NCBI GenBank assembly: GCA_027297435.1
Contig: JAPUIA010000107.1
Coordinates: forward strand, 1-54,799
Length of the DNA: 54,799 bases
Source of the DNA: Gammaproteobacteria bacterium
GTDB taxonomy: Bacteria > Pseudomonadota > Gammaproteobacteria > Pseudomonadales > Azotimanducaceae
Direction: 5' to 3'
The notes under the pieces were generated by a model, which did not search any database, was not told the DNA's origin, and worked only from the letters and a program-made list of their open reading frames with translations. How positions within the stretch are numbered: the first letter of the stretch is position 1; every line of letters starts with the position of its first letter. Of the stretch, positions 4,216 through 19,718 are shown piece by piece. The translations under genes and the position numbers were made by a program.

Positions 4216-6141
4216 TTACTCGGCGACCCCAGAGTCAGCGGGTAGCGCGTATGCGACTAAACTGTCGCCTAAGTTGCCGGGTATGGGGATGCGCCCGAAA
4301 CCACCGGCCGCGATGACGACGACCTGCCGACCGTCGATGCGGTAGCTCATCGGTATCGCTTGGCCGCCGGCAGGCAGCGACGCTTCCCACAAGACCTCGC
4401 CGGTCTCGATGTCGAACGCTCGAAAGGTAGAGTCGAAGGTTGCCGCCAGGAACACCAAGCCGCTCTTCGTGACGAGAGGACCGCCCATGTTGGGTAGGCC
4501 GATGGTTCCGACCAGCGGGAGATCGCCGATCGGGACGCTCCAGCGCAAGTCTCCCGTCTCTAGGTCCACGGCATGCAACGTACCCCACGGCGGCGGGTTG
4601 CACGGCAGGAAGAAGTTGGATAAGAAAAACTCCCGACGCATGCCCCAAGGGGTGCCTTCCTGGCGTCCGTGCTCCACATCGGGTTGCTCTGCGCGAGCGT
4701 CCTCGAACTGGGCGCGCGGGAACAGGGTGACGACCCAAGGCAAATCCATCACGTTCGCGACCAGCAGTTGACGCTCCGGATCGACGGCGACGCCGCCCCA
4801 GTTCGTGCCGCCGGCGTTGCCGGGTATCATGATCGTGCCCTGGGTCGTCGGCGGCGTGAAAGCGCCGTCGAAACGGAGCCTTTCGACCTGCTCCCGACAA
4901 TAGCCACGATCCCAGAACGTGAGGCCCCACACGTCCTCGGGCGTGATACTCAAACGCATGAGGGGTGGCGGCCTAACGGGAAAGGGCTGGGTTGGCGAGA
5001 GTACGAAGTCGTCCTCGCCACCCTGTGGTACCGGTCGCTCCTCCACTGGAATCAGCGGCTCACCGGTCTCGCGATCGAGGATGAACAGGTGGCTCGACTT
5101 GGTGGATTGCACCACCGCCGGAATCATTTGGTCGCCGCGGCGCAGCGGAAACAAAACCGGCTGTGATGCAACGTCGAGATCCCACACGTCGTGGTGCACG
5201 GTTTGGAAGGACCAAGCCACCTCTCCCGTACGGGCATGCAAGGCGACGGTGCTACTGCCGTAGTAGTCGAGACCCTGGCGATGCGCGTTGGCATAGTCGG
5301 GCGTGGGGTTGCCGGTCGGAACGAATAGCAGGTCGCGTTCCGGATCGTACGACATGGGTGCCCAGACGTTCGGCGTCGAGAGCATCCAACCGCTGTCCGG
5401 GTCGCGCTTGCCGCCAGGCTCGTCAGGCGGCGCCAAGTCCCAAGCCCAGGCCATCTCGCCCGTGCGCACGTCGAAAGCGCGGATGACGCCGGAAGGGGCT
5501 TCGATGCGGGCGTTGTCGCCGATCGCCGAACCCACCACCACCAAGTCGCCGGCCAGCGTCGGCGCCGAGGTCAGCTGATACTCGCCCTTCCAGCGTTGAT
5601 CACCGACGCCGGGGTTCAGATCGACGCTGCCTCCCTCGCCGAAGTCGGTGCACGGCGTCCCGGTGCCAGCGTCGATTGCGAACAGTCGAGCGTCGACGGT
5701 GTTGGTGAGTATTCGGTGGCGGCAACGCGCGCCGACCTCGGCCACCGGATCGATCCAGCTGGCGACGCCTCGGCACACGAGTTGGTTGGACCACCCCGCA
5801 TGCTTGTCGATCTCCGGATCGAAGATCCAAAGCTCCTTGCCGGTGAGCGGGTCCAGCGCGAATACTCGATTGAAGGGAGTGCAGCCGTACAGCGTGCCTT
5901 CCACTAGGAGCGGCGTCAGCTCGAAGGCGCTCGTCGTCCTGAAGGGCGGCGTTTGATCGGAGAGGTCGCCGTGGCGCCAGGTCCAGAGCTCCTCCAGTTG
6001 ATCGACGTTCTCGGGCGTGATCTGGTCGAGCTCTGCGTAGCGCATGCCACCCGGGTCGCCGCCCCAATGTGTCCACGACGCATCCTGCCCCGAAGCGCTG
6101 ATGGCCGGGAGGAGCAGAACGATCAGGGCGATCCAGTGCAT
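4216..6141 (-). CDS. PQQ-dependent dehydrogenase, membrane glucose/quinate dehydrogenase type
   Basis: A periplasmic quinoprotein that oxidises a sugar, polyol or cyclic acid and passes electrons to quinone. The beta-propeller of the glucose/quinate/shikimate group is clear: WTHWGGDPGGMRY at the N-terminus, TPFNRVFALDPLTGKELW, the HHDVWDLD segment, GGTNWGGVAVDP, and a C-terminal segment ending VVIAAGG. The start at 6141 gives a good signal peptide (MHWIALIVLLLPAISASGQ) and a GGGGTAAG box; the longer frame to 6303 has no such features. Unlike true membrane glucose dehydrogenases it has no five-helix N-terminal membrane domain, so it is soluble or peripheral. The 641-residue length fits the propeller alone. 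The substrate is not predictable. Confidence 0.87.
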   Translation of the reverse strand: MHWIALIVLLLPAISASGQDASWTHWGGDPGGMRYAELDQITPENVDQLEELWTWRHGDLSDQTPPFRTTSAFELTPLLVEGTLYGCTPFNRVFALDPLTGKELWIFDPEIDKHAGWSNQLVCRGVASWIDPVAEVGARCRHRILTNTVDARLFAIDAGTGTPCTDFGEGGSVDLNPGVGDQRWKGEYQLTSAPTLAGDLVVVGSAIGDNARIEAPSGVIRAFDVRTGEMAWAWDLAPPDEPGGKRDPDSGWMLSTPNVWAPMSYDPERDLLFVPTGNPTPDYANAHRQGLDYYGSSTVALHARTGEVAWSFQTVHHDVWDLDVASQPVLFPLRRGDQMIPAVVQSTKSSHLFILDRETGEPLIPVEERPVPQGGEDDFVLSPTQPFPVRPPPLMRLSITPEDVWGLTFWDRGYCREQVERLRFDGAFTPPTTQGTIMIPGNAGGTNWGGVAVDPERQLLVANVMDLPWVVTLFPRAQFEDARAEQPDVEHGRQEGTPWGMRREFFLSNFFLPCNPPPWGTLHAVDLETGDLRWSVPIGDLPLVGTIGLPNMGGPLVTKSGLVFLAATFDSTFRAFDIETGEVLWEASLPAGGQAIPMSYRIDGRQVVVIAAGGFGRIPIPGNLGDSLVAYALPADSGVAE

Positions 6142-6507
6142 ATGTCTTACCCCGCTCGGTGGCGAACGTTCGTTGTCGACACATCGATCCAGCGGCAGGG
6201 GCATCGCGCCAGCATCTCCGAATGTTTCGTGTGCAGTTTGCATGGGCGATGAGGCCGCTCCGACTGATCGCTCGAGTCTACCTAAAATGGGGCGTCGAAA
6301 CATGATTGGCTAATGGCGAGTCCGGATCCTGTGCGGAAGTTCAGACCTATAACGGGGCTTACATAGCGCGTAAAGCACAGATGGTAGGGGTTTTGGAACG
6401 CCCACTTTCCGCGGAAGAATTTTTCGGGCCAGTGTCCTACGAAGCGTTAGGCCGTTTTCCCACACAGCGTGTGTATGCTGTTTATGCGTCCCGCTGGTTG
6501 AATAAAG
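6142..6507. other. Intergenic region upstream of the PQQ dehydrogenase
   Basis: This 366-bp stretch should hold the promoter of the PQQ dehydrogenase gene and the 3' flank of the MFS gene. Two small perfect palindromic elements are visible: TTCCGCGGAA at 6407-6416 and CACAC-AGC-GTGTG at 6461-6473. Either may be an operator, but no known consensus is matched. No convincing gene was seen. Confidence 0.4.
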
Positions 6508-7857
6508 CTACACCTCCCTCAGATTGCGCTGGTACGTTTCGGATAACAGAAAGACGGACAAGAACGTCAGTCCGCAGGCGACAGCGATATACACCGATAT
6601 GCCGAGCGTGCTGCCATAGGTCGCGAGAATGGCAGTTGCGATGATCGGTGCCAAGGCTCCACCGAGTATCGCGCCCAATTGATACCCGAGCGAGGCACCG
6701 GAATAGCGCACGTGCGTGCTGAACATCTCTGTCAGAAACGCCGCCTGCGGCCCGTACATCATTCCGATGAGGATCAGACCTACGGACACGCCTACCGTGA
6801 TCCATAGAAACGAACCCGTATCCACGAGTGGAAACAGGACGAACCCCCACACGCCCATGAGGGCCGCGCCGAGCATGTAGACGCCACGCCTACCGTGTTT
6901 GTCCGAATACATCGCGGCCATGAACTGCGTGGGAATCTGTACGACCGACGCAAGCAGCACCGCCGCTAGCATTGTGCCGCGCGGTAGGCCAAGCCCAGCC
7001 GGGTCGGTGCCGTAGGCAATGACGAATGTGATCATGATGTAGAAGGTCACCTGCGCGGCTAGAAACGCACCTGCTGCCAAGGCGATTTGTTTTGGATAGG
7101 TCGTGATGGCCTCGAGTACGGGTGATCGGCGCGCGACCACCTGCTCCACGACGGTATCGGTCGGGAGATTCGGAGTCGCGGTCAAAGCTTGCAGCTCGCG
7201 GAACGCAGGCGTGTCTTCGAGGCGCAGCTGCACGTACAAACTCAAGCCGATCAGCGAGACGCTCGCGACGAACGGGATGCGCCAACCCCAGGCCATGAAT
7301 GCCTCTTGAGACACGCTAGCCGTCACGATCAAAAACGCTAGGTTGGCGAGGATCAGGCCGACGGGTGCGCCGGCCTGCGCGAACGCTCCATAGAAGCCGC
7401 GTTTGTCGGGCGGCGCGTTTTCGGTCACCAGCAACATCGCGCCGCCCCATTGGCCGCCCACCGCAAGCCCTTGCACGAACCTGAGCAGTACCAATGAGAC
7501 GGGCGCAAACGCGCCGATCATCGCGTAGGTGGGCAGGAGACCGATAAGTGTCGTCGCCACCCCCATCATCATGAGGGCGACCACCAACGTTTTTTTGCGC
7601 CCAACCCGATCGCCGAAGTGACCGAACACGACGGCGCCGATTGGTCGGGCAAGGAACCCCACTGCAAAGGTGCTGAACGAGGCGATTAAACTGGCGTAGG
7701 GCGGCATGTCTGCTGCGAAGAACACGGTTGGAAACACCAACGCCGCTGCGGTGGCGTACAGAAAGAAATCGAACCACTCGATGCTGGTCCCGGCCAAAGC
7801 CGTGAGCGCCACACGGCGCATAGAACCGCTGGGCGCGGTGACCGTGGCACTAGACAT
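6508..7857 (-). CDS. MFS transporter, metabolite:H+ symporter (MHS) family
   Basis: A 449-residue inner-membrane symporter with 12 predicted helices, probably importing an organic acid or similar metabolite with protons. MHS hallmarks are the IEWFDFFLYATAAALVF helix 1, the cytoplasmic loop GHFGDRVGRKKTL, RFVQGLAVGGQWGGA in helix 4, and WGWRIPFVASV in helix 6. Relatives include ShiA (shikimate), KgtP and ProP. A GAGAGG ribosome-binding site precedes the ATG. It is separated from the downstream PQQ gene by 366 bp and from the upstream GFA gene by 66 bp, so it may be a single transcription unit. The substrate is unknown. Confidence 0.9.
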   Translation of the reverse strand: MSSATVTAPSGSMRRVALTALAGTSIEWFDFFLYATAAALVFPTVFFAADMPPYASLIASFSTFAVGFLARPIGAVVFGHFGDRVGRKKTLVVALMMMGVATTLIGLLPTYAMIGAFAPVSLVLLRFVQGLAVGGQWGGAMLLVTENAPPDKRGFYGAFAQAGAPVGLILANLAFLIVTASVSQEAFMAWGWRIPFVASVSLIGLSLYVQLRLEDTPAFRELQALTATPNLPTDTVVEQVVARRSPVLEAITTYPKQIALAAGAFLAAQVTFYIMITFVIAYGTDPAGLGLPRGTMLAAVLLASVVQIPTQFMAAMYSDKHGRRGVYMLGAALMGVWGFVLFPLVDTGSFLWITVGVSVGLILIGMMYGPQAAFLTEMFSTHVRYSGASLGYQLGAILGGALAPIIATAILATYGSTLGISVYIAVACGLTFLSVFLLSETYQRNLREV

Positions 7858-7923
7858 GGACCTCTCCCCGGGGGTGTTTTTGTTGTTCTAGAGCTGAAGC
7901 ATACCAGCAAGCCGCCGGAAGGT

Positions 7924-8346
7924 TTACTTGCGAGACGGTTTGAAGTCGCTGGCATCCGGTAGGTGTTCGTCGAGGTGCAACCATTCGATCTTGCTGTCGC
8001 GGTAGTCATGAAAACCGGCCGGAAAAGCGTCCGGATCGTCGAACGCACCGATCGTGACGTAGATGCGTTCCGGCCGCGGATTGAACCCGAAGCACAGGCT
8101 GGTGCCGCAGCGGGAGCAAAAGCCACGCCAAGCCGCTTCGCTCGAGTCGTAGCGTGCCAGTTTGCCAATCCACCGCACTTTGTCGCTCTCGAATGTGGCG
8201 AAGGTCGCCACCGCTGCGCCGACGGCGCGTCGACACATCGTACAGTGACAGTGGGTGACTCGGCGGGGCGCGGTTGACGCTTCGAACTTGACCGCACCGC
8301 AGAGACAAGATCCGTTGACGCTCACCTTTGCGCGGTCATCGGTCAT
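7924..8346 (-). CDS. GFA family (Mss4-like) zinc protein
   Basis: A 140-residue zinc-binding protein of the glutathione-dependent formaldehyde-activating enzyme fold; most members have no proven activity. Zinc and structural cysteines are visible in order: CLCGAV, CHCTMC, and CSRCGTSL. The family-typical VTIGAFDDPDAF and WLHLDEHLPD segments close the domain. The start at 8346 (MTDDRAK) is preferred because AAGGA lies six bases upstream; a GTG at 8364 has no ribosome-binding site. It is the first of a run of separate minus-strand genes, with no obvious operon partner. Confidence 0.88.
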   Translation of the reverse strand: MTDDRAKVSVNGSCLCGAVKFEASTAPRRVTHCHCTMCRRAVGAAVATFATFESDKVRWIGKLARYDSSEAAWRGFCSRCGTSLCFGFNPRPERIYVTIGAFDDPDAFPAGFHDYRDSKIEWLHLDEHLPDASDFKPSRK

Positions 8347-13252: not shown

Positions 13253-13430
13253 CGATACGCTCGCAATTGCTTACTCATCACCCGCTTGTCCAAAATCGTT
13301 GACAAAGTGTTCCGCAAAGTTTCGGAGAGGTATTGTAACGAGGCTCGATCGAGCATTCTGCCACTAAAATGGCGCTTCCTATCCCGTCTCACCAGGGTAT
13401 TATCTGCCGCAACGAAGGGGAGATTTGAAC

Positions 13431-15647
13431 ATGCGTGCACTGATTTGGCTCGTCGCGGCGGTCGCGGTCGCCGCACTGATTTATTTTCTGTCGACCCGGG
13501 AGACGCAGGAGACGCCGCAGACGCAAGAATCGGAGCCCGCCGTTGAAATTCTGGCCCCCAGCATCGGACTCATCGACGATGCTCGTATCAATAATGCGGC
13601 GAGCGAACCCGGCAATTGGCTCGCTTATGGCCGCACCTACGAAGAGCAACGCTTCTCGCCCCTGACCCAGATCAATCGTGACAACGTCGCCGATCTGAGC
13701 CTTGCGTGGTATCGGGACATGGGTACCAATCGCGCCCAAGAGGCCACGCCAATCGTGGTTGACGGCATCATGTTCTTTACCAGTTCCTGGAGCCGGGTGT
13801 TTGCGATCACTGCCGCGACCGGTGAAGAAGTGTGGTCTTACGACCCGAAGGTACCGGGTGAGTATGGGCGGCGTGCTTGTTGTGACGTGGTGAATCGTGG
13901 CGTGGCGGTCTACAACGGCCGTGTCTACTTCGGCAGTCTCGATGGCCGGCTCATCGCGTTGGACGCCGCGACCGGCGAGGAAGTCTGGCAGGTCAATACG
14001 ATCATTGACCCCGACCGCTTCTACACCATCACCGGCGCACCGCGTGCCGCCAAGGGCAAGATTTTCATTGGCAACGGCGGGGCCGAGTTCGGCGTGCGTG
14101 GTTATGTGACCGCATACGATGCCGAAACCGGTGACCAGGTGTGGCGGTTCTACACCGTGCCGGGCGATCCGTCCCTGCCGTTCGAACACCCCGAGATGGA
14201 GATGGCCGCTGACACTTGGAAGGGTGGCGAGTGGTGGGAGATCGGGGGTGGCGGTACCGTGTGGAACTCGATTGTCTACGATCCCGATTTTGATCAGGTA
14301 TATCTCGGCGTCGGCAACGGTTCTCCCTGGACGCGCGTGATTCGGTCGCCGGGTGGCGGCGACAACCTGTTTTTGTCCTCGATTGTCGCGCTCGATGTCG
14401 ATACCGGCTCGATGAATTGGTACTACCAGACCACACCTGGCGACAACTGGGACTACACGGCGGTTCAAGACATGGCGTTGGCAGACATGGAAGTGGACGG
14501 TGTCATGCGCAAGGTGCTGTTGCAGGCACCGAAGAATGGATTCTTCTACGTCATCGATCGCGAGAACGGCGAGTTGCTGCGAGCCAATCCGTTTGCCACG
14601 GTCACCTGGGCGAGCCATATCGACATGGAGACGGGCAGGCCAGTGGAAAACCCGGATCTCGACTTCAGCGAAGATGAAAAGTGGGTGCTTCCCGGGCCCC
14701 TTGGTGCACACAACTGGCAGGCGATGTCCGTCGACGTCGATGCCGGGGTCGTGTACCTGCCCGCGCAAGACAATCCGTTCATCTACGGCATGTCGGACGA
14801 GTGGAAACAAACGGGCGTTTACAAGCGCAATCCCGGAGCCTTCAACTTGGGCGTAGAGCTTGGTGGGCTGGCTCAGCTGGTGGTCAACAACATCGACTCG
14901 CAACCGACACCCAAGGGCTATCTCAAAGCCTTTGATCCGCTGACGGGTGACGACAAGTGGGTGGTGGAGATTCCCCACTACTGGAACGGCGGCGTGCTCG
15001 GTACTGCTGGCGGTCTCGTGTTCCACGGCGATGCCCTGGGGCACCTGACGGCCTACGACAAGGACAACGGCGAGGCGCTCTGGCAGTTCAACACCTACAC
15101 ATCGATGTTGGCGCCGCCCATTACGTTCGAGATCGATGGCGTGCAGTACGTCTCGATTCTCACCGGCAGTGGCGGAGGCGATCTGTTTGCCGGGGAACCG
15201 ATGCCGCCGGTCGCGATACCTGCGTCACTCACCTACGGCAATTTCGGCAAGATGTTGGTGTTCAAGCTTGGCGGCGAAGCCGAGCTGCCGATTCCCAACG
15301 CGGTCAGCCGCACCATACCGGAGCAGACGCTCAGCAGCGTTGGCGATGAGGAAATTGCGAGGGGCGAGCGCCTATATGGCGCCTACTGCAGTGTTTGCCA
15401 TGGCCTGGTCGCACGCTCAGGAGGTGTCATCGCGGATCTCAGACACATGAGCGAGGGTTCGCACGTTGCGTTCAATCAAATCGTGTTGGAAGGCTTGTTA
15501 TCGGCGCAGGGCATGGCGGCGTTCAGCGATAGTCTTGCCGAAGAGGATGCCGATAGCATTCACGAATACGTACGCCGGCGCGCGCACGAAGACCGCGAGC
15601 TGGCGATGGGCAAAAAGGAAGCTGCTCGACTGACTTGGCTGCAGTAG
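13431..15647 (+). CDS. PQQ-dependent alcohol dehydrogenase fused to cytochrome c (quinohemoprotein 1)
   Basis: A 738-residue periplasmic enzyme that oxidises an alcohol and passes electrons from PQQ to its own heme c. An N-terminal anchor (about 5-22) is followed by an eight-bladed propeller with repeated AxDxxTGExxW motifs. Active-site parts: vicinal cysteines C150-C151 (RRACCD), the Glu of GGAEFGVRGY, and the Asp of TPGDNWDYT, the general base. Thr, not Asp, lies two residues after that Asp, which points to calcium, not a lanthanide. The C-terminal domain has CSVCH (about 653-657) and a candidate axial Met in AQGMAAF. AAGGGGAG precedes the ATG by about eight bases. A tandem paralog follows after 29 bases. 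Confidence 0.92.
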   Translation: MRALIWLVAAVAVAALIYFLSTRETQETPQTQESEPAVEILAPSIGLIDDARINNAASEPGNWLAYGRTYEEQRFSPLTQINRDNVADLSLAWYRDMGTNRAQEATPIVVDGIMFFTSSWSRVFAITAATGEEVWSYDPKVPGEYGRRACCDVVNRGVAVYNGRVYFGSLDGRLIALDAATGEEVWQVNTIIDPDRFYTITGAPRAAKGKIFIGNGGAEFGVRGYVTAYDAETGDQVWRFYTVPGDPSLPFEHPEMEMAADTWKGGEWWEIGGGGTVWNSIVYDPDFDQVYLGVGNGSPWTRVIRSPGGGDNLFLSSIVALDVDTGSMNWYYQTTPGDNWDYTAVQDMALADMEVDGVMRKVLLQAPKNGFFYVIDRENGELLRANPFATVTWASHIDMETGRPVENPDLDFSEDEKWVLPGPLGAHNWQAMSVDVDAGVVYLPAQDNPFIYGMSDEWKQTGVYKRNPGAFNLGVELGGLAQLVVNNIDSQPTPKGYLKAFDPLTGDDKWVVEIPHYWNGGVLGTAGGLVFHGDALGHLTAYDKDNGEALWQFNTYTSMLAPPITFEIDGVQYVSILTGSGGGDLFAGEPMPPVAIPASLTYGNFGKMLVFKLGGEAELPIPNAVSRTIPEQTLSSVGDEEIARGERLYGAYCSVCHGLVARSGGVIADLRHMSEGSHVAFNQIVLEGLLSAQGMAAFSDSLAEEDADSIHEYVRRRAHEDRELAMGKKEAARLTWLQ

Positions 15648-15676
15648 CAGCCCAACGAATCATAGAAGGGGGGTTT

Positions 15677-17866
15677 GTGAAAGCGTTCAGCATCTTGATT
15701 GCCGTCGTGTTGCTGGCGGCGCTTGCGTGGTTCGTTACCCGGCAGGCGGAAGCACCTCCGCCAACCGCAGACGTGGAAGAGCCCGCAGTGGTACCGGCCC
15801 CGTCGATCGGCATGGTCGACGATGCGCGCATCGAGAATGCGCTCGTTGACGAACCCGGCAGTTGGATGGCGCACGGCATCGACTTCACCGAACGGCGTTT
15901 TTCACCGCTGACCCAGATCAATCGCGACAACGTCAGCGACCTTGGTCTGGTGTGGCGCAAAGACCTTGGCACATTTCACGCCCAGGAAGCGACACCGCTC
16001 GTGGTCGACGGCCTCATGATCTTTCCGAGCGCTTGGAACATCGTCTACGCGCTCGATGCGGTAACGGGAGAAACCCGTTGGGTCTACGATCCGAAAGTCG
16101 ATCGCGGTCGAATCGGTACCATCTGGGCGCCCTTTAGCCGCGGCATCGCCATATATAAGGGTCGGGTTTATGTCGCCACCATCGACGGCTATCTCGCCGC
16201 AGTCGATGCGGCGACCGGGCAGGAGGTCTGGAAGATCGACACGATCGTTGATCGTGCCATTCCGTACTTCATCAGCGGCGCCCCCAGGGTTGGCGGCGGC
16301 CACGTCTACATCGGCAACGGTGGTTCGGAGTGGGGCACGCGCGGCTATACGACTGCCTACGATGCCGAGACCGGAGAGCAAGTCTGGCGGTTCTGGTCGG
16401 TGCCGGGAGATCCGTCACTGCCGTTCGAGCATCCTGAAATGGAGATGGCCGCCAAGACTTGGAAGGGCGGTGAGTGGTGGAAGTACGGCGGGGGTGGCAA
16501 CGTTTGGAACTCCATCGTCTACGACGCCGAGCTAAATCAAGTGTATTTGGGTATGGGCAACGCAGCGCCTTGGGCGCGCGTGATTCGCTCACCCGGCGGC
16601 GGCGACAACCTGTTCGCGGCGGCGATCGTTGCGGTCGATGCGGACACGGGTCGGATGAACTGGTATTACCAGACGACCCCTGGTGACAACTGGGACTTTA
16701 CCGCGGTGCAGGACATGGCGTTGGTCGACCTCGAAGTCGATGGTGCGATGCGCAAGGTCATCCTGCAGGCGCCCAAGAACGGCTTCTTCTATGTCATCGA
16801 TCGCACCAACGGTGAGCTGCTGCGGGCACATCCCTTTGCAACGGTCACCTGGGCATCCCACGTCGACATGGAAACGGGTCGCCCGGTTGAGCTTGAACAA
16901 GGCAACTACAACGACGAGGCCAAGTGGGTGTTGCCAGGTCCGCTCGGCGCCCACAACTGGCAGGCGATGAGCGTCGATCCCGGCACCGGCGTGGTGTACA
17001 TGTCGACACACGATTACGCTTGGTGGTACAAGATCGATCCTAGCTTCCAAGAGACCGGCATCTACAAGTGGCAGGTCGGTCAGATGAATCTCGGCCTCGA
17101 TCCGGAAACCGCCGACCTGTTGGAAGGGGTAACTTCGCCCGCCGCAGAGGGCTATCTCACTGCTTTTGACCCGCTCACGGGGGACGTGAAATGGCAAAAC
17201 GAGCTAGATCACCATTGGAATGGTGGCGTGGTCGCCACCGCCGGCGGCTTGGTGTTTCAGGGTGAAGGCATGGGCCACATTTACGCGTACGATAAAGACA
17301 ACGGCGAGCGCCTATGGGGGTTCAACACCTATACGTCGATCATCGCACCCCCCATCACCTATCAGATCGATGATACCCAGTTTGTCGCCATCATCACCGG
17401 TTCTGGTGGGGCGGAAAGCTTCATCGGTAAGGCCGCGGATACCGCAACCGATACCTACGGTAATCATCCGCAAATGCTGGTGTTCGCGCTAGGTGGTACC
17501 GAGCAGCTCGAGGAGCCTGACAAGGTCGCACAAATACCGCCTGAGCAGCCGTTGCTGTCAACGGAGCGCCACGAGCTGCGCCGTGGCAGCGTGCTCTATC
17601 ACGATTTCTGTGCCGCTTGCCACGGTGGCCAGGCTAAGAGCTTCGGCGTAGTGCCGGACCTACGGTTCATGGAAGCCTCGGTCCGGGAAATCTTCGATCA
17701 GATCGTGTTGGGCGGAGCGTTGGAACCGGTCGGTATGGGTAGTTTTGCCGAGTGGCTGAGCGAAGCAGATGCCAAGCGCGTGCTCGGTTACATCTTGTAC
17801 CGCGCGAACGCCGATCGGGACAAGGCCCTCATGGAGGGAGAGACGGAGGAACAGGCAGGACCTTAG
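15677..17866 (+). CDS. PQQ-dependent alcohol dehydrogenase fused to cytochrome c (quinohemoprotein 2), vicinal disulfide missing
   Basis: A 729-residue tandem paralog of the preceding gene with the same plan: N-terminal anchor (about 2-19), propeller, and C-terminal heme c domain with CAACH (about 644-648) and Met in PVGMGSF. Catalytic parts GGSEWGTRGY and TPGDNWDFT are kept, again with Thr at the lanthanide-indicator position. The adjacent cysteine pair of copy 1 is absent: the matching stretch reads GTIWAPFSRG. GTG at 15677 is chosen because AAGGGGGG lies just upstream and the anchor follows at once. Probably an operon with copy 1. The substrate ranges of the two may differ. Confidence 0.9.
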   Translation: MKAFSILIAVVLLAALAWFVTRQAEAPPPTADVEEPAVVPAPSIGMVDDARIENALVDEPGSWMAHGIDFTERRFSPLTQINRDNVSDLGLVWRKDLGTFHAQEATPLVVDGLMIFPSAWNIVYALDAVTGETRWVYDPKVDRGRIGTIWAPFSRGIAIYKGRVYVATIDGYLAAVDAATGQEVWKIDTIVDRAIPYFISGAPRVGGGHVYIGNGGSEWGTRGYTTAYDAETGEQVWRFWSVPGDPSLPFEHPEMEMAAKTWKGGEWWKYGGGGNVWNSIVYDAELNQVYLGMGNAAPWARVIRSPGGGDNLFAAAIVAVDADTGRMNWYYQTTPGDNWDFTAVQDMALVDLEVDGAMRKVILQAPKNGFFYVIDRTNGELLRAHPFATVTWASHVDMETGRPVELEQGNYNDEAKWVLPGPLGAHNWQAMSVDPGTGVVYMSTHDYAWWYKIDPSFQETGIYKWQVGQMNLGLDPETADLLEGVTSPAAEGYLTAFDPLTGDVKWQNELDHHWNGGVVATAGGLVFQGEGMGHIYAYDKDNGERLWGFNTYTSIIAPPITYQIDDTQFVAIITGSGGAESFIGKAADTATDTYGNHPQMLVFALGGTEQLEEPDKVAQIPPEQPLLSTERHELRRGSVLYHDFCAACHGGQAKSFGVVPDLRFMEASVREIFDQIVLGGALEPVGMGSFAEWLSEADAKRVLGYILYRANADRDKALMEGETEEQAGP

Positions 17867-17870
17867 ACTT

Positions 17871-18437
17871 CTAAACCTCGGGTACCGCCTTGGGGGGCAA
17901 AGCCGGTGGCGGTACCCGGCTGAACTCGAATCGCGGCCGAAAACCGTCGCTGCCGGACAGTGCGGGCGCGCCTGCATAGTCGAGTCCTTCCTGGGGTGGC
18001 GGCTCTTCTTCCGCCAATACCTGCCGACTCATGCGCCCGTTCAACGGCTCGCCTTTTTCTAACGTCTGAAGCGCTTCTTGAGCAGCTTCGGCCGTGTCTT
18101 CGTCCCAAGGCACGCGGTGCGCGCGCGGTTCGCTTGCCGGTAGCCCGGCCTGATCGAGTTCGCGCACCCAAAAGAAGATACTACCGTCCTCGCCCGTCCG
18201 TTTGTCCGGCTCGTCGATGGTTATCCAATGCACGCGAAATTCTTCGGGCATGGCACCCGGGGTAGCCCACCCGAGCAGCGCTTGATGACCCTGCCACGCA
18301 CCGATGTAGAGACCGCTGACGAGTAGGATGGCGCCGGTTTTGACCGCGCCGCTCCAACGCGTAGCAAGATTGAGGTTCAACAGCAATGCAGCGACGGCGG
18401 CATAGGCAATGGAGAGAACCACGATGACGGTAGTCAT
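17871..18437 (-). CDS. Membrane protein of unknown function, third gene of the ExbB/ExbD-like operon
   Basis: Not recognised. The 188-residue protein has two predicted membrane helices (about 2-22 and 31-50), then a hydrophilic part with VHWITIDEPDK, GSIFFWVRELD and an acidic, then proline-rich C-terminus (PPPALPPKAVPEV). Its ATG overlaps the stop of the ExbD-like gene (ATGA, four bases), a strong sign of translational coupling and a shared complex. Its stop is only four bases from the stop of the convergent PQQ dehydrogenase. It may be a periplasmic or cytoplasmic accessory of the putative ion-driven motor. Confidence 0.7.
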   Translation of the reverse strand: MTTVIVVLSIAYAAVAALLLNLNLATRWSGAVKTGAILLVSGLYIGAWQGHQALLGWATPGAMPEEFRVHWITIDEPDKRTGEDGSIFFWVRELDQAGLPASEPRAHRVPWDEDTAEAAQEALQTLEKGEPLNGRMSRQVLAEEEPPPQEGLDYAGAPALSGSDGFRPRFEFSRVPPPALPPKAVPEV

Positions 18438-19051
18438 AGCTTGGAATTCACCGCTTTTGTCAACAAGCGTTTGGTGGGCGTGTTGGTGTTCGTGACATTG
18501 CCGTCCGCGCCGATCGTAAAGCGAACGGCCGTTTGCTCATCGCCCACTCCGGTGAGTTCGTAGGTGCCGTAGAATACGAGTGTCACCGACGGGTTCAACT
18601 TCTCCACCTTCACCGAAACCGGTAGGGGCTCCGTGTAGTTGGCTTGGTAGTGCAACAGATTGACGACGTATTCGCCGGACTTCAGGGCGCGCACGGTGAC
18701 CGTTTCTTGGTTGATGGGATTGGAAACCTCGATACCGTTCAAAACGACGCGGTCTTGAAAGAGCCCGCGGTCGTCACGATCGAGGTGCATCAGTCCGGTA
18801 TCCCGGTTGTGGTACCAGACCATATTGCCCTGCGGATCTTCGACCAGCGTGTCGACGTCGTCCGGGTGTCGGTCTGCCCAACGCACGGTAATCAAGATTT
18901 CGGCCTTCGATTCGATATTGCCGCCTTCGGTCGGGTCGGCCATCAACGAAAAGGCCACCACGAACATGAAAGCGAAACCCAGCAAAGCGTTGAACAACAA
19001 GTCGGTAAACGCGTCTTGCGATTCGTTTTGTTTGTACAGGCTATGACGCAT
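18434..19051 (-). CDS. ExbD/MotB-like stator protein with a DUF2135-like domain
   Basis: A 205-residue protein with a short cytoplasmic N-terminus and one membrane helix (about 18-37). The segment QDAFTDLLFNALLGFAF places an Asp (D17) at the helix start, as the proton-carrying Asp of ExbD, TolR and MotB. The periplasmic part is unlike standard ExbD: VRWADRHPDDVDTLVEDPQG, then MVWYHNRDTG and LDRDDRG resemble the DUF2135/YfaP-type beta domain. Overlaps the ExbB-like gene by 11 bases and the third gene by four. Inference: an ion-driven stator unit whose output domain is new. It could also be a degenerate Tol/Exb relative. Confidence 0.65.
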   Translation of the reverse strand: MRHSLYKQNESQDAFTDLLFNALLGFAFMFVVAFSLMADPTEGGNIESKAEILITVRWADRHPDDVDTLVEDPQGNMVWYHNRDTGLMHLDRDDRGLFQDRVVLNGIEVSNPINQETVTVRALKSGEYVVNLLHYQANYTEPLPVSVKVEKLNPSVTLVFYGTYELTGVGDEQTAVRFTIGADGNVTNTNTPTKRLLTKAVNSKL

Positions 19052-19718
19052 CGCGGGTGATATGTAGTTCAGTGAGCACCGAAAGGCGGGTTGCTAGATC
19101 AGCCGCTGACGCATCGAGAATGTGGTACTGCAGCTTCAAGAGCGTGCTCGTAATCAGCCCGGCAAGCGTTGTATAGAGCGCCACCGCCATCCCACCGCTC
19201 ATCGCTGACAGTAGTTGTTGGACGATGCTCGGGTCGAACTCTTCGATCTCACCGACCGGCAGCAACATCAAGATAAAACCAACGACCGTGCCCAGTAGTC
19301 CAAGCTTCAACAGGGCGTCGCTGGTGAAGTGGCCCAACGCGTGGCGGTTGGTGAGCTCATCACCAAAAGCCGTAAGCAATGCCGCCGGGTCGCTACCCTC
19401 GCCCTTGGTACGCCAATTGGCAATGAATCGTCCGAGCAGGCTGGTGTCGTTGGTGCTCGGCGCGCGTTCGTTGCACTTGAGTTCGGTCTCGAGTGTGGTG
19501 AATCGGGTACGCTCTCGGCCAAGCGTGTAGGTCAGCCATAGCCAGTGGCCGCTCGCGAGCAGGTAGATGCCGAAGATCACGTAGGAGATGTAGCTTCGGT
19601 CGGAGCTCAATGCCAGCATCAACAGGCCCCGGTCAGCTGCCAGGTAAACCCCGAAAGCGATTAGGCCTACAATGATGAGCGCACGAAATACGAGGTTGGA
19701 ATCGGTCGGTGGTTGCAT
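19041..19718 (-). CDS. MotA/TolQ/ExbB-like proton channel protein
   Basis: A 225-residue inner-membrane protein, likely the ring-forming subunit of a proton-driven complex. Four hydrophobic segments are predicted near residues 8-28, 43-63, 138-158 and 172-195. The family signature is clear: LGLLGTVVGFILMLLP in the third helix and SGGMAVALYTTLAGLITS in the fourth. A cytoplasmic loop of about 70 residues lies between helices two and three. It is the first gene of a tightly overlapping three-gene operon. No TonB, TolA or flagellar gene is nearby, so the partner system is unknown. Confidence 0.85.
   Translation of the reverse strand: MQPPTDSNLVFRALIIVGLIAFGVYLAADRGLLMLALSSDRSYISYVIFGIYLLASGHWLWLTYTLGRERTRFTTLETELKCNERAPSTNDTSLLGRFIANWRTKGEGSDPAALLTAFGDELTNRHALGHFTSDALLKLGLLGTVVGFILMLLPVGEIEEFDPSIVQQLLSAMSGGMAVALYTTLAGLITSTLLKLQYHILDASAADLATRLSVLTELHITRDAS

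Follow-up and report, generated by a model that had tools for sequence, protein, structure and literature searches.

The stretch of DNA analysed here, which we call the window, is 54,799 nucleotides of one contig from a gammaproteobacterium of the Azotimanducaceae. Three overlapping minus-strand genes, ORF3, ORF2 and ORF1 (the trio), lie beside two plus-strand quinoprotein genes:

13425..15647, plus strand: PQ1, a PQQ-dependent alcohol dehydrogenase with a C-terminal cytochrome c and an N-terminal hydrophobic segment (PF01011, 8.2e-79)
15635..17866, plus strand: PQ2, in tandem with its paralogue PQ1 (identity about 60%); it converges on ORF1, and its end lies 5 bases from that gene
17871..18437, minus strand: ORF1, 188 aa, a two-helix protein with a small alpha/beta domain (AlphaFold2; no family match)
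18434..19051, minus strand: ORF2, 205 aa, an axle-type protein with one helix (residues 9-37) and an all-beta domain (AlphaFold2, family survey)
18620..18901, minus strand: the DUF2135/YfaP-like part of ORF2, residues 51-144 (hhalign, Pfam)
19001..19003, minus strand: the codon of ORF2 Asp17, a putative proton-binding residue (alignment conservation)
19041..19718, minus strand: ORF3, 225 aa, an ExbB/TolQ/MotA-family ring protein (Pfam MotA_ExbB, invariant motif residues)

A preliminary description had read the minus-strand genes as an unrecognized operon resembling ExbB/ExbD, citing overlaps of 11 bases (ORF3/ORF2) and 4 bases (ORF2/ORF1), which we find as described, all on the minus strand. 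Its assignment of ORF3 to the MotA/TolQ/ExbB proteins also holds: the sequences LGLLGTVVGF and GGMAVALYTTLAGL are present, and Pfam MotA_ExbB matches at 2.1e-8 (PF01618, 34.4 bits against a curated cut-off of 22.9, covering profile positions 59-124 of 127). Residues G140, L141, G143, T144, T183 and T184 are invariant in a 57-row ORF3 alignment, and the GLxGT and ALxTTxxGL motifs align with three MotA/ExbB-family proteins of the same genome. Crude hydropathy gives three helices in the window's ORF3; four are likely. One 268-aa SAR86 protein collected as an ORF3 relative was set aside, as it resembles an enoyl-CoA hydratase and was probably linked through a miscalled long ORF (L037, judged by eye).

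ORF2 was expected to carry a single helix bearing Asp17, and the AlphaFold2 model (mean pLDDT 79.5) places that helix at residues 9-37. It thus has the acidic axle-helix residue found in 5:2 ion-driven motors. This Asp is invariant in 43 ORF2 rows of type C, which form one clade in the ORF2 tree (support 99; the phage label requires three changes on that tree), and is present in at least 90% of 54 diverse members including phages, most phage rows among them. It is absent from one subclade, which comprises L151, L154 and L155 and 7 of 12 members of a further locus set (L267-L272 and L275); there a Lys follows a few residues later. The trios lacking this Asp may not be proton driven, or another residue may serve. 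L151, L154 and L155 each also carry two copies of ORF1.

After its helix, ORF2 is modeled as an all-beta domain; ten-residue blocks from residue 51 to 200 have pLDDT 54-95, with 11 of the 15 above 80. As anticipated, this is not a normal ExbD/TolR domain: PF02472 does not match ORF2, a search of the genome with that profile finds four other places, and when the ORF2 family (A5) is compared by hhalign with those four ExbD-family proteins, 13 columns around the Asp align at a probability of 1%. The suggested likeness to DUF2135/YfaP finds support in a single hhalign comparison of A5 with a true YfaP (columns 52-145; E 5.9e-5, probability 65%). DUF2135 (PF09906) is the Pfam family most often matched among ORF2 members, yet it reaches E values up to 0.1 in only 3 of 54; one member exceeds its cut-off (22.3 versus 22 bits), and the window's ORF2 has no match to it. 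YfaP and ORF2 share a DxD..V..P.G core, a later Glu and a G-Y strand pattern, whereas the YfaP that we examined looks secreted and lacks a motor helix.

ORF1, predicted earlier to be a two-helix protein of no known family, is modeled (mean pLDDT 79.1) with helices at residues 2-25 and 30-55 and a small alpha/beta domain. Its C-terminus is proline-rich, and it matched none of the families searched. In Pfam and NCBIfam, neither ORF1 nor ORF2 reaches a curated cut-off. Weak matches to Pfam WHH and Flavi_NS1 and to NCBIfam ZmpD, all below cut-off, were discarded. PDB sequence searches with queries A1, A2 and A3 returned no match, and PDB fold searches gave no meaningful match to either the ORF2 or the ORF1 model: leucocidin-like Foldseek matches of ORF2 had an rmsd of about 20 A, and those of ORF1 were likewise rejected. 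The best ORF2 match in a viral structure library is a 713-aa Cellulophaga phage protein (E 1.2e-5), and PHROGs yields one weak match to a family of unknown function (phrog_1735, 7.9e-4).

A scan of a contig database revealed 180 places encoding ORF2 relatives, with Pseudomonadales, SAR86 and Myxococcota bins among the carriers. The best 80 of these and the 23 loci found among 97 relatives (the window's own genome included) together make 103 loci; the two sources overlap and partly represent the same genomes. ORF2 and ORF1 occur in 103/103 of these loci and ORF3 in 100/103, so that the complete trio is present in 100, which rules out a chance arrangement and confirms the conservation for which the preliminary description had proposed a survey. 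Two of the loci lacking ORF3 lie at contig ends (L085 and L088), and the third is unexplained (L017). Spacing or an additional gene separates ORF3 from ORF2 in L103 and L014/L047; in L103 an acylase-like gene (5674-7956, labeled by eye) occupies the junction. An AAA_21-type ATPase gene is inserted at the same position in one genome (L146, 9112-10386). In wider samples, the ORF2 family was found in 35 of 321 genomes of the class, own genome included, and in 17 of 398 genomes of the phylum; among 30 class loci that include the window's, 29 have ORF3 and all 30 ORF1. Seven records of Azospirillum megaplasmids each show two distant ORF2-like places per plasmid. The trio is real, widespread and conserved, and, as far as our literature searches show, undescribed so far. 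Gene calls in these surveys were mechanical ORFs, making neighbor labels rough.

The trio is best read as an undescribed branch of ExbBD/MotAB-like motors. With ExbB-ExbD and TolQ-TolR it shares the ring motifs and Thr positions of ORF3 and the single Asp-bearing N-terminal helix of ORF2; it differs from them in the DUF2135-like head, the extra two-helix subunit and the lack of conserved TonB, TolA, TolB or Pal neighbors. None of the neighborhoods examined is a Tol or Ton cluster, in agreement with the earlier reading, and the most widely shared neighbor is instead a PQQ dehydrogenase. The genome's own four ExbD-family places and four other MotA/ExbB-family places lie elsewhere, the ExbD-family ones on other contigs. 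MotA-MotB also pairs a ring with an Asp-bearing axle; in the trio, however, we found no OmpA-like peptidoglycan domain and no long cytoplasmic region. A Zorya-like defense function, or in phages a counter-defense or exclusion device, might be proposed from the weak matches of PADLOC ZorA profiles to ORF3 (best 2.8e-5) and from the existence of phage copies. We consider it very improbable, given that the 225-aa ORF3 has no long ZorA tail, that PADLOC and Pfam scans of the three trio proteins show neither another Zor protein nor an OmpA-like domain, and that many loci have metabolic neighbors.

In 86 of the 103 loci, ORF1 faces a convergent gene for a PQQ/heme-c alcohol dehydrogenase; two of the 17 loci without one have no room for it, which leaves 86 of 101. 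PQ1 has a cytochrome c match of 1.7e-8 and scores above the TIGR03075 cut-off. In the window PQ2 is the gene nearest ORF1, but the convergent genes of other loci are closer to PQ1. By eye, most PQ1 proteins have at their start either a helix that looks uncleaved or a lipobox-like Cys. The association extends beyond neighborhood: among the 97 genomes, a PQ1 orthologue of at least 64% identity, a cut chosen after the lists were seen, is found in 23/23 trio genomes (one cut by a contig end, in G029) and at full length in 1 of the 74 others (G001; Fisher 2e-21, relatedness of genomes ignored). This count omits partial PQ1-like matches of 61%-66% in trio-negative genomes (G055, G010, G060 and others); the one that was placed in a tree, a 66% match from G055 (73% complete), falls outside the PQ1 clade. 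Trio and PQ1 lie within 3 kb of each other in 17 of the 23 genomes, 15 kb apart in one and on different contigs in five. In the PQ1 tree, the six unlinked copies fall inside the clade of linked ones (support 91), while six further paralogues of trio genomes fall outside it. The loci L055, L060, L083 and L095 group together as a single clade whether the tree is that of ORF2 or that of PQ1, and the PQQ dehydrogenase beside the trio in L099 belongs to another paralogue clade.

Could trio and PQ1 simply have been inherited or transferred together without a shared function? Such hitchhiking would fit the close synteny seen in lineages such as SAR86, and also the relatedness of most counted genomes. 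All six unlinked cases come, like G001, from a single genus and a single PQ1 subclade, and unlinking with retention accordingly counts as one event; in G001, which has PQ1 alone, the trio was probably lost. Yet that genus keeps both trio and PQ1 although they are unlinked, and the PQQ dehydrogenase stays in place while other neighbors change between lineages. On this evidence we regard hitchhiking as improbable.

We instead give slight preference, at barely better than even confidence, to a PMF-driven inner-membrane machine of the ExbBD/MotAB kind whose client in this clade is the membrane-tethered PQQ/heme-c alcohol dehydrogenase PQ1. In this model ORF3 would form the ring, ORF2 would supply the Asp-bearing axle and a DUF2135-like periplasmic head, ORF1 would be a constant third membrane subunit, and the proton-motive force would drive the assembly. 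As first choice for the output, we tentatively suggest mechanical help in maturing PQ1 or loading it with PQQ and/or a metal ion. A comparable system is that of the MoxR/VWA accessory proteins of methanol dehydrogenase, machinery that likewise serves a periplasmic quinoprotein, and one trio branch has a VWA partner as well; those proteins are ATP driven, whereas the trio would use protons. Several observations count against this model. The enzyme gene is convergent and not co-transcribed with the trio, PQ1 occurs without the trio in G001, and the unlinked cases and G001 may represent a single event. The L099 paralogue, the Asp-less subclade, the wider loci, most of which have no PQQ dehydrogenase nearby, and the absence of a PDB fold match point the same way.

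PQQ itself suggests another role, in which the trio acts like TonB-associated energizers and powers uptake of PQQ or of alcohol substrates across the outer membrane for PQ1. A PqqE model, our sole criterion for PQQ synthesis, matches 7 of the 97 genomes, none of the 23 trio genomes and thus not the window's, suggesting that PQQ is imported. PQQ import in E. coli is TonB-dependent (PMC12124388). The proline-rich C-terminus of ORF1 and TonB-receptor-like genes seen by eye near some trio loci are compatible with this role. However, 39 of the 74 trio-negative genomes also have PQQ dehydrogenases without PqqE, which argues that PQQ import is independent of the trio. Moreover, the trio is associated with a single clade of enzymes, the genome also encodes ordinary ExbB/ExbD-family proteins, and trio neighborhoods have no receptor-like family widely in common. 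Energized uptake is thus rather unlikely in our estimation. The window's genome, which has four further PQQ dehydrogenase matches beyond the tandem pair at 13425-17866, is probably a multi-quinoprotein PQQ auxotroph.

Outside the PQ1 clade, branches of the trio are associated instead with VWA-FHA proteins, a protein phosphatase or phages. Among 37 wider loci of the class, a fam13 gene lies at or near ORF1 in six (DUF3108-like in the two members scanned, one above cut-off), and a PQQ dehydrogenase occurs within 8 kb in 5 of these 6 versus 0 of the 31 others (p 1.4e-5). Such an enzyme is thus not near the trio in 32 of the 37, nor is it in 10 of 12 further loci. This second trio clade adjoins ped/exa-type quinoprotein genes. 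Scanned neighbors include a PedF cytochrome and a quinoprotein-associated SoxYZ-like carrier in L150 and a quinoprotein relay hydrolase in L163, and by clustering L153 has some of the same quinoprotein-associated neighbors. The enzyme in L139 is a PQQ alcohol dehydrogenase that is not close to the ped type, and the ORF2 of that locus groups with the VWA-FHA type. A ped-type enzyme lies about 7 kb from the trio in L266 and 16 kb away in L276, the same locus as L161. The trio is present in 6 of 10 genomes with a close ped-type enzyme (p 1.7e-4), counted with a 66% cut chosen after the lists were seen.

Other wider loci carry different genes. A VWA-FHA family gene is present in 12 of the 37 (assigned by clustering, with two members scanned and some members short), a PP2C-FGE gene in L158 and L159 (one scanned) and a DUF302 gene upstream of the trio in several; a kinase-like gene adjoins several of the 12 further loci (by eye). 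Given these VWA-FHA, PP2C-FGE and AAA_21 genes, a quinoprotein appears to be the partner of some branches and not of the whole family. The VWA-FHA, PP2C-FGE, DUF302 and kinase-like genes, and the viral copies described below, would be in keeping with a general envelope motor for wall or outer-membrane upkeep or phospho-signaling, its link to PQ1 being regulatory or metabolic and not physical. This we consider somewhat unlikely, since it would lead one to expect neither an association with a single quinoprotein clade nor the quinoprotein neighborhood of the other clade.

Reduced versions of the trio genes occur in large phages, and the motor families compared here offer no explanation for them. 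By tblastn, ORF2 is found in 27 Rhizobium/Sinorhizobium phage records, a number that includes GenBank/RefSeq pairs of one phage (best identity 39%, E 2e-29). In four phages examined, the ORF3 profile matches a 141-148-aa ORF just before ORF2 (E 2e-8 to 2e-5), and the next ORF after it, 144-153 aa long, has one or two crude helices; the ORF1 profile has no significant match in these four (E 0.02-0.08). Their trio lies among DNA-replication and repair genes. Viral contigs, some of 80-340 kb, contain ORF2 relatives in 47 of 60 candidate stretches. Across 51 viral loci (L171-L221), 45 have a match to the ORF3 profile immediately upstream of ORF2, and 31 match the ORF1 profile downstream of it; an upstream GxxG[TSA]-type motif is seen in 46, and 48 have a downstream ORF with an N-terminal helix. 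The strictest count is 33 of 51; it requires the motif together with at least three crude helices upstream, and a helix downstream. By crude hydropathy, the viral ORF3-like ORFs mostly have two to four helices. Ten viral neighbor proteins compared with PHROGs were mostly unknowns with some DNA-metabolism genes, and no quinoprotein was found among the viral neighbors looked at. In the open-licence literature, including the available parts of PMC9389320 and PMC12505986, we found no report of phage-encoded versions of this motor class. A broader and doubtful scenario would make the trio a separate proton-motor branch of bacteria and large phages, with an axle that terminates in a DUF2135-like head, in which the bacterial form draws on the proton gradient to load or remodel periplasmic quinoproteins and phages have the smallest three-gene versions.

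Motors of this class are known to serve flagellar rotation, Ton, Tol, gliding and Zorya, but to our knowledge no quinoprotein. If the trio does serve PQ1, this would be a new job for proton-driven motors and would give the PQQ enzymes of SAR86 and other marine bacteria an accessory factor. Structural studies would also gain very small natural motors whose ring protein has about 150 residues. Because the trio is tied to a single enzyme clade, its function can be tested.
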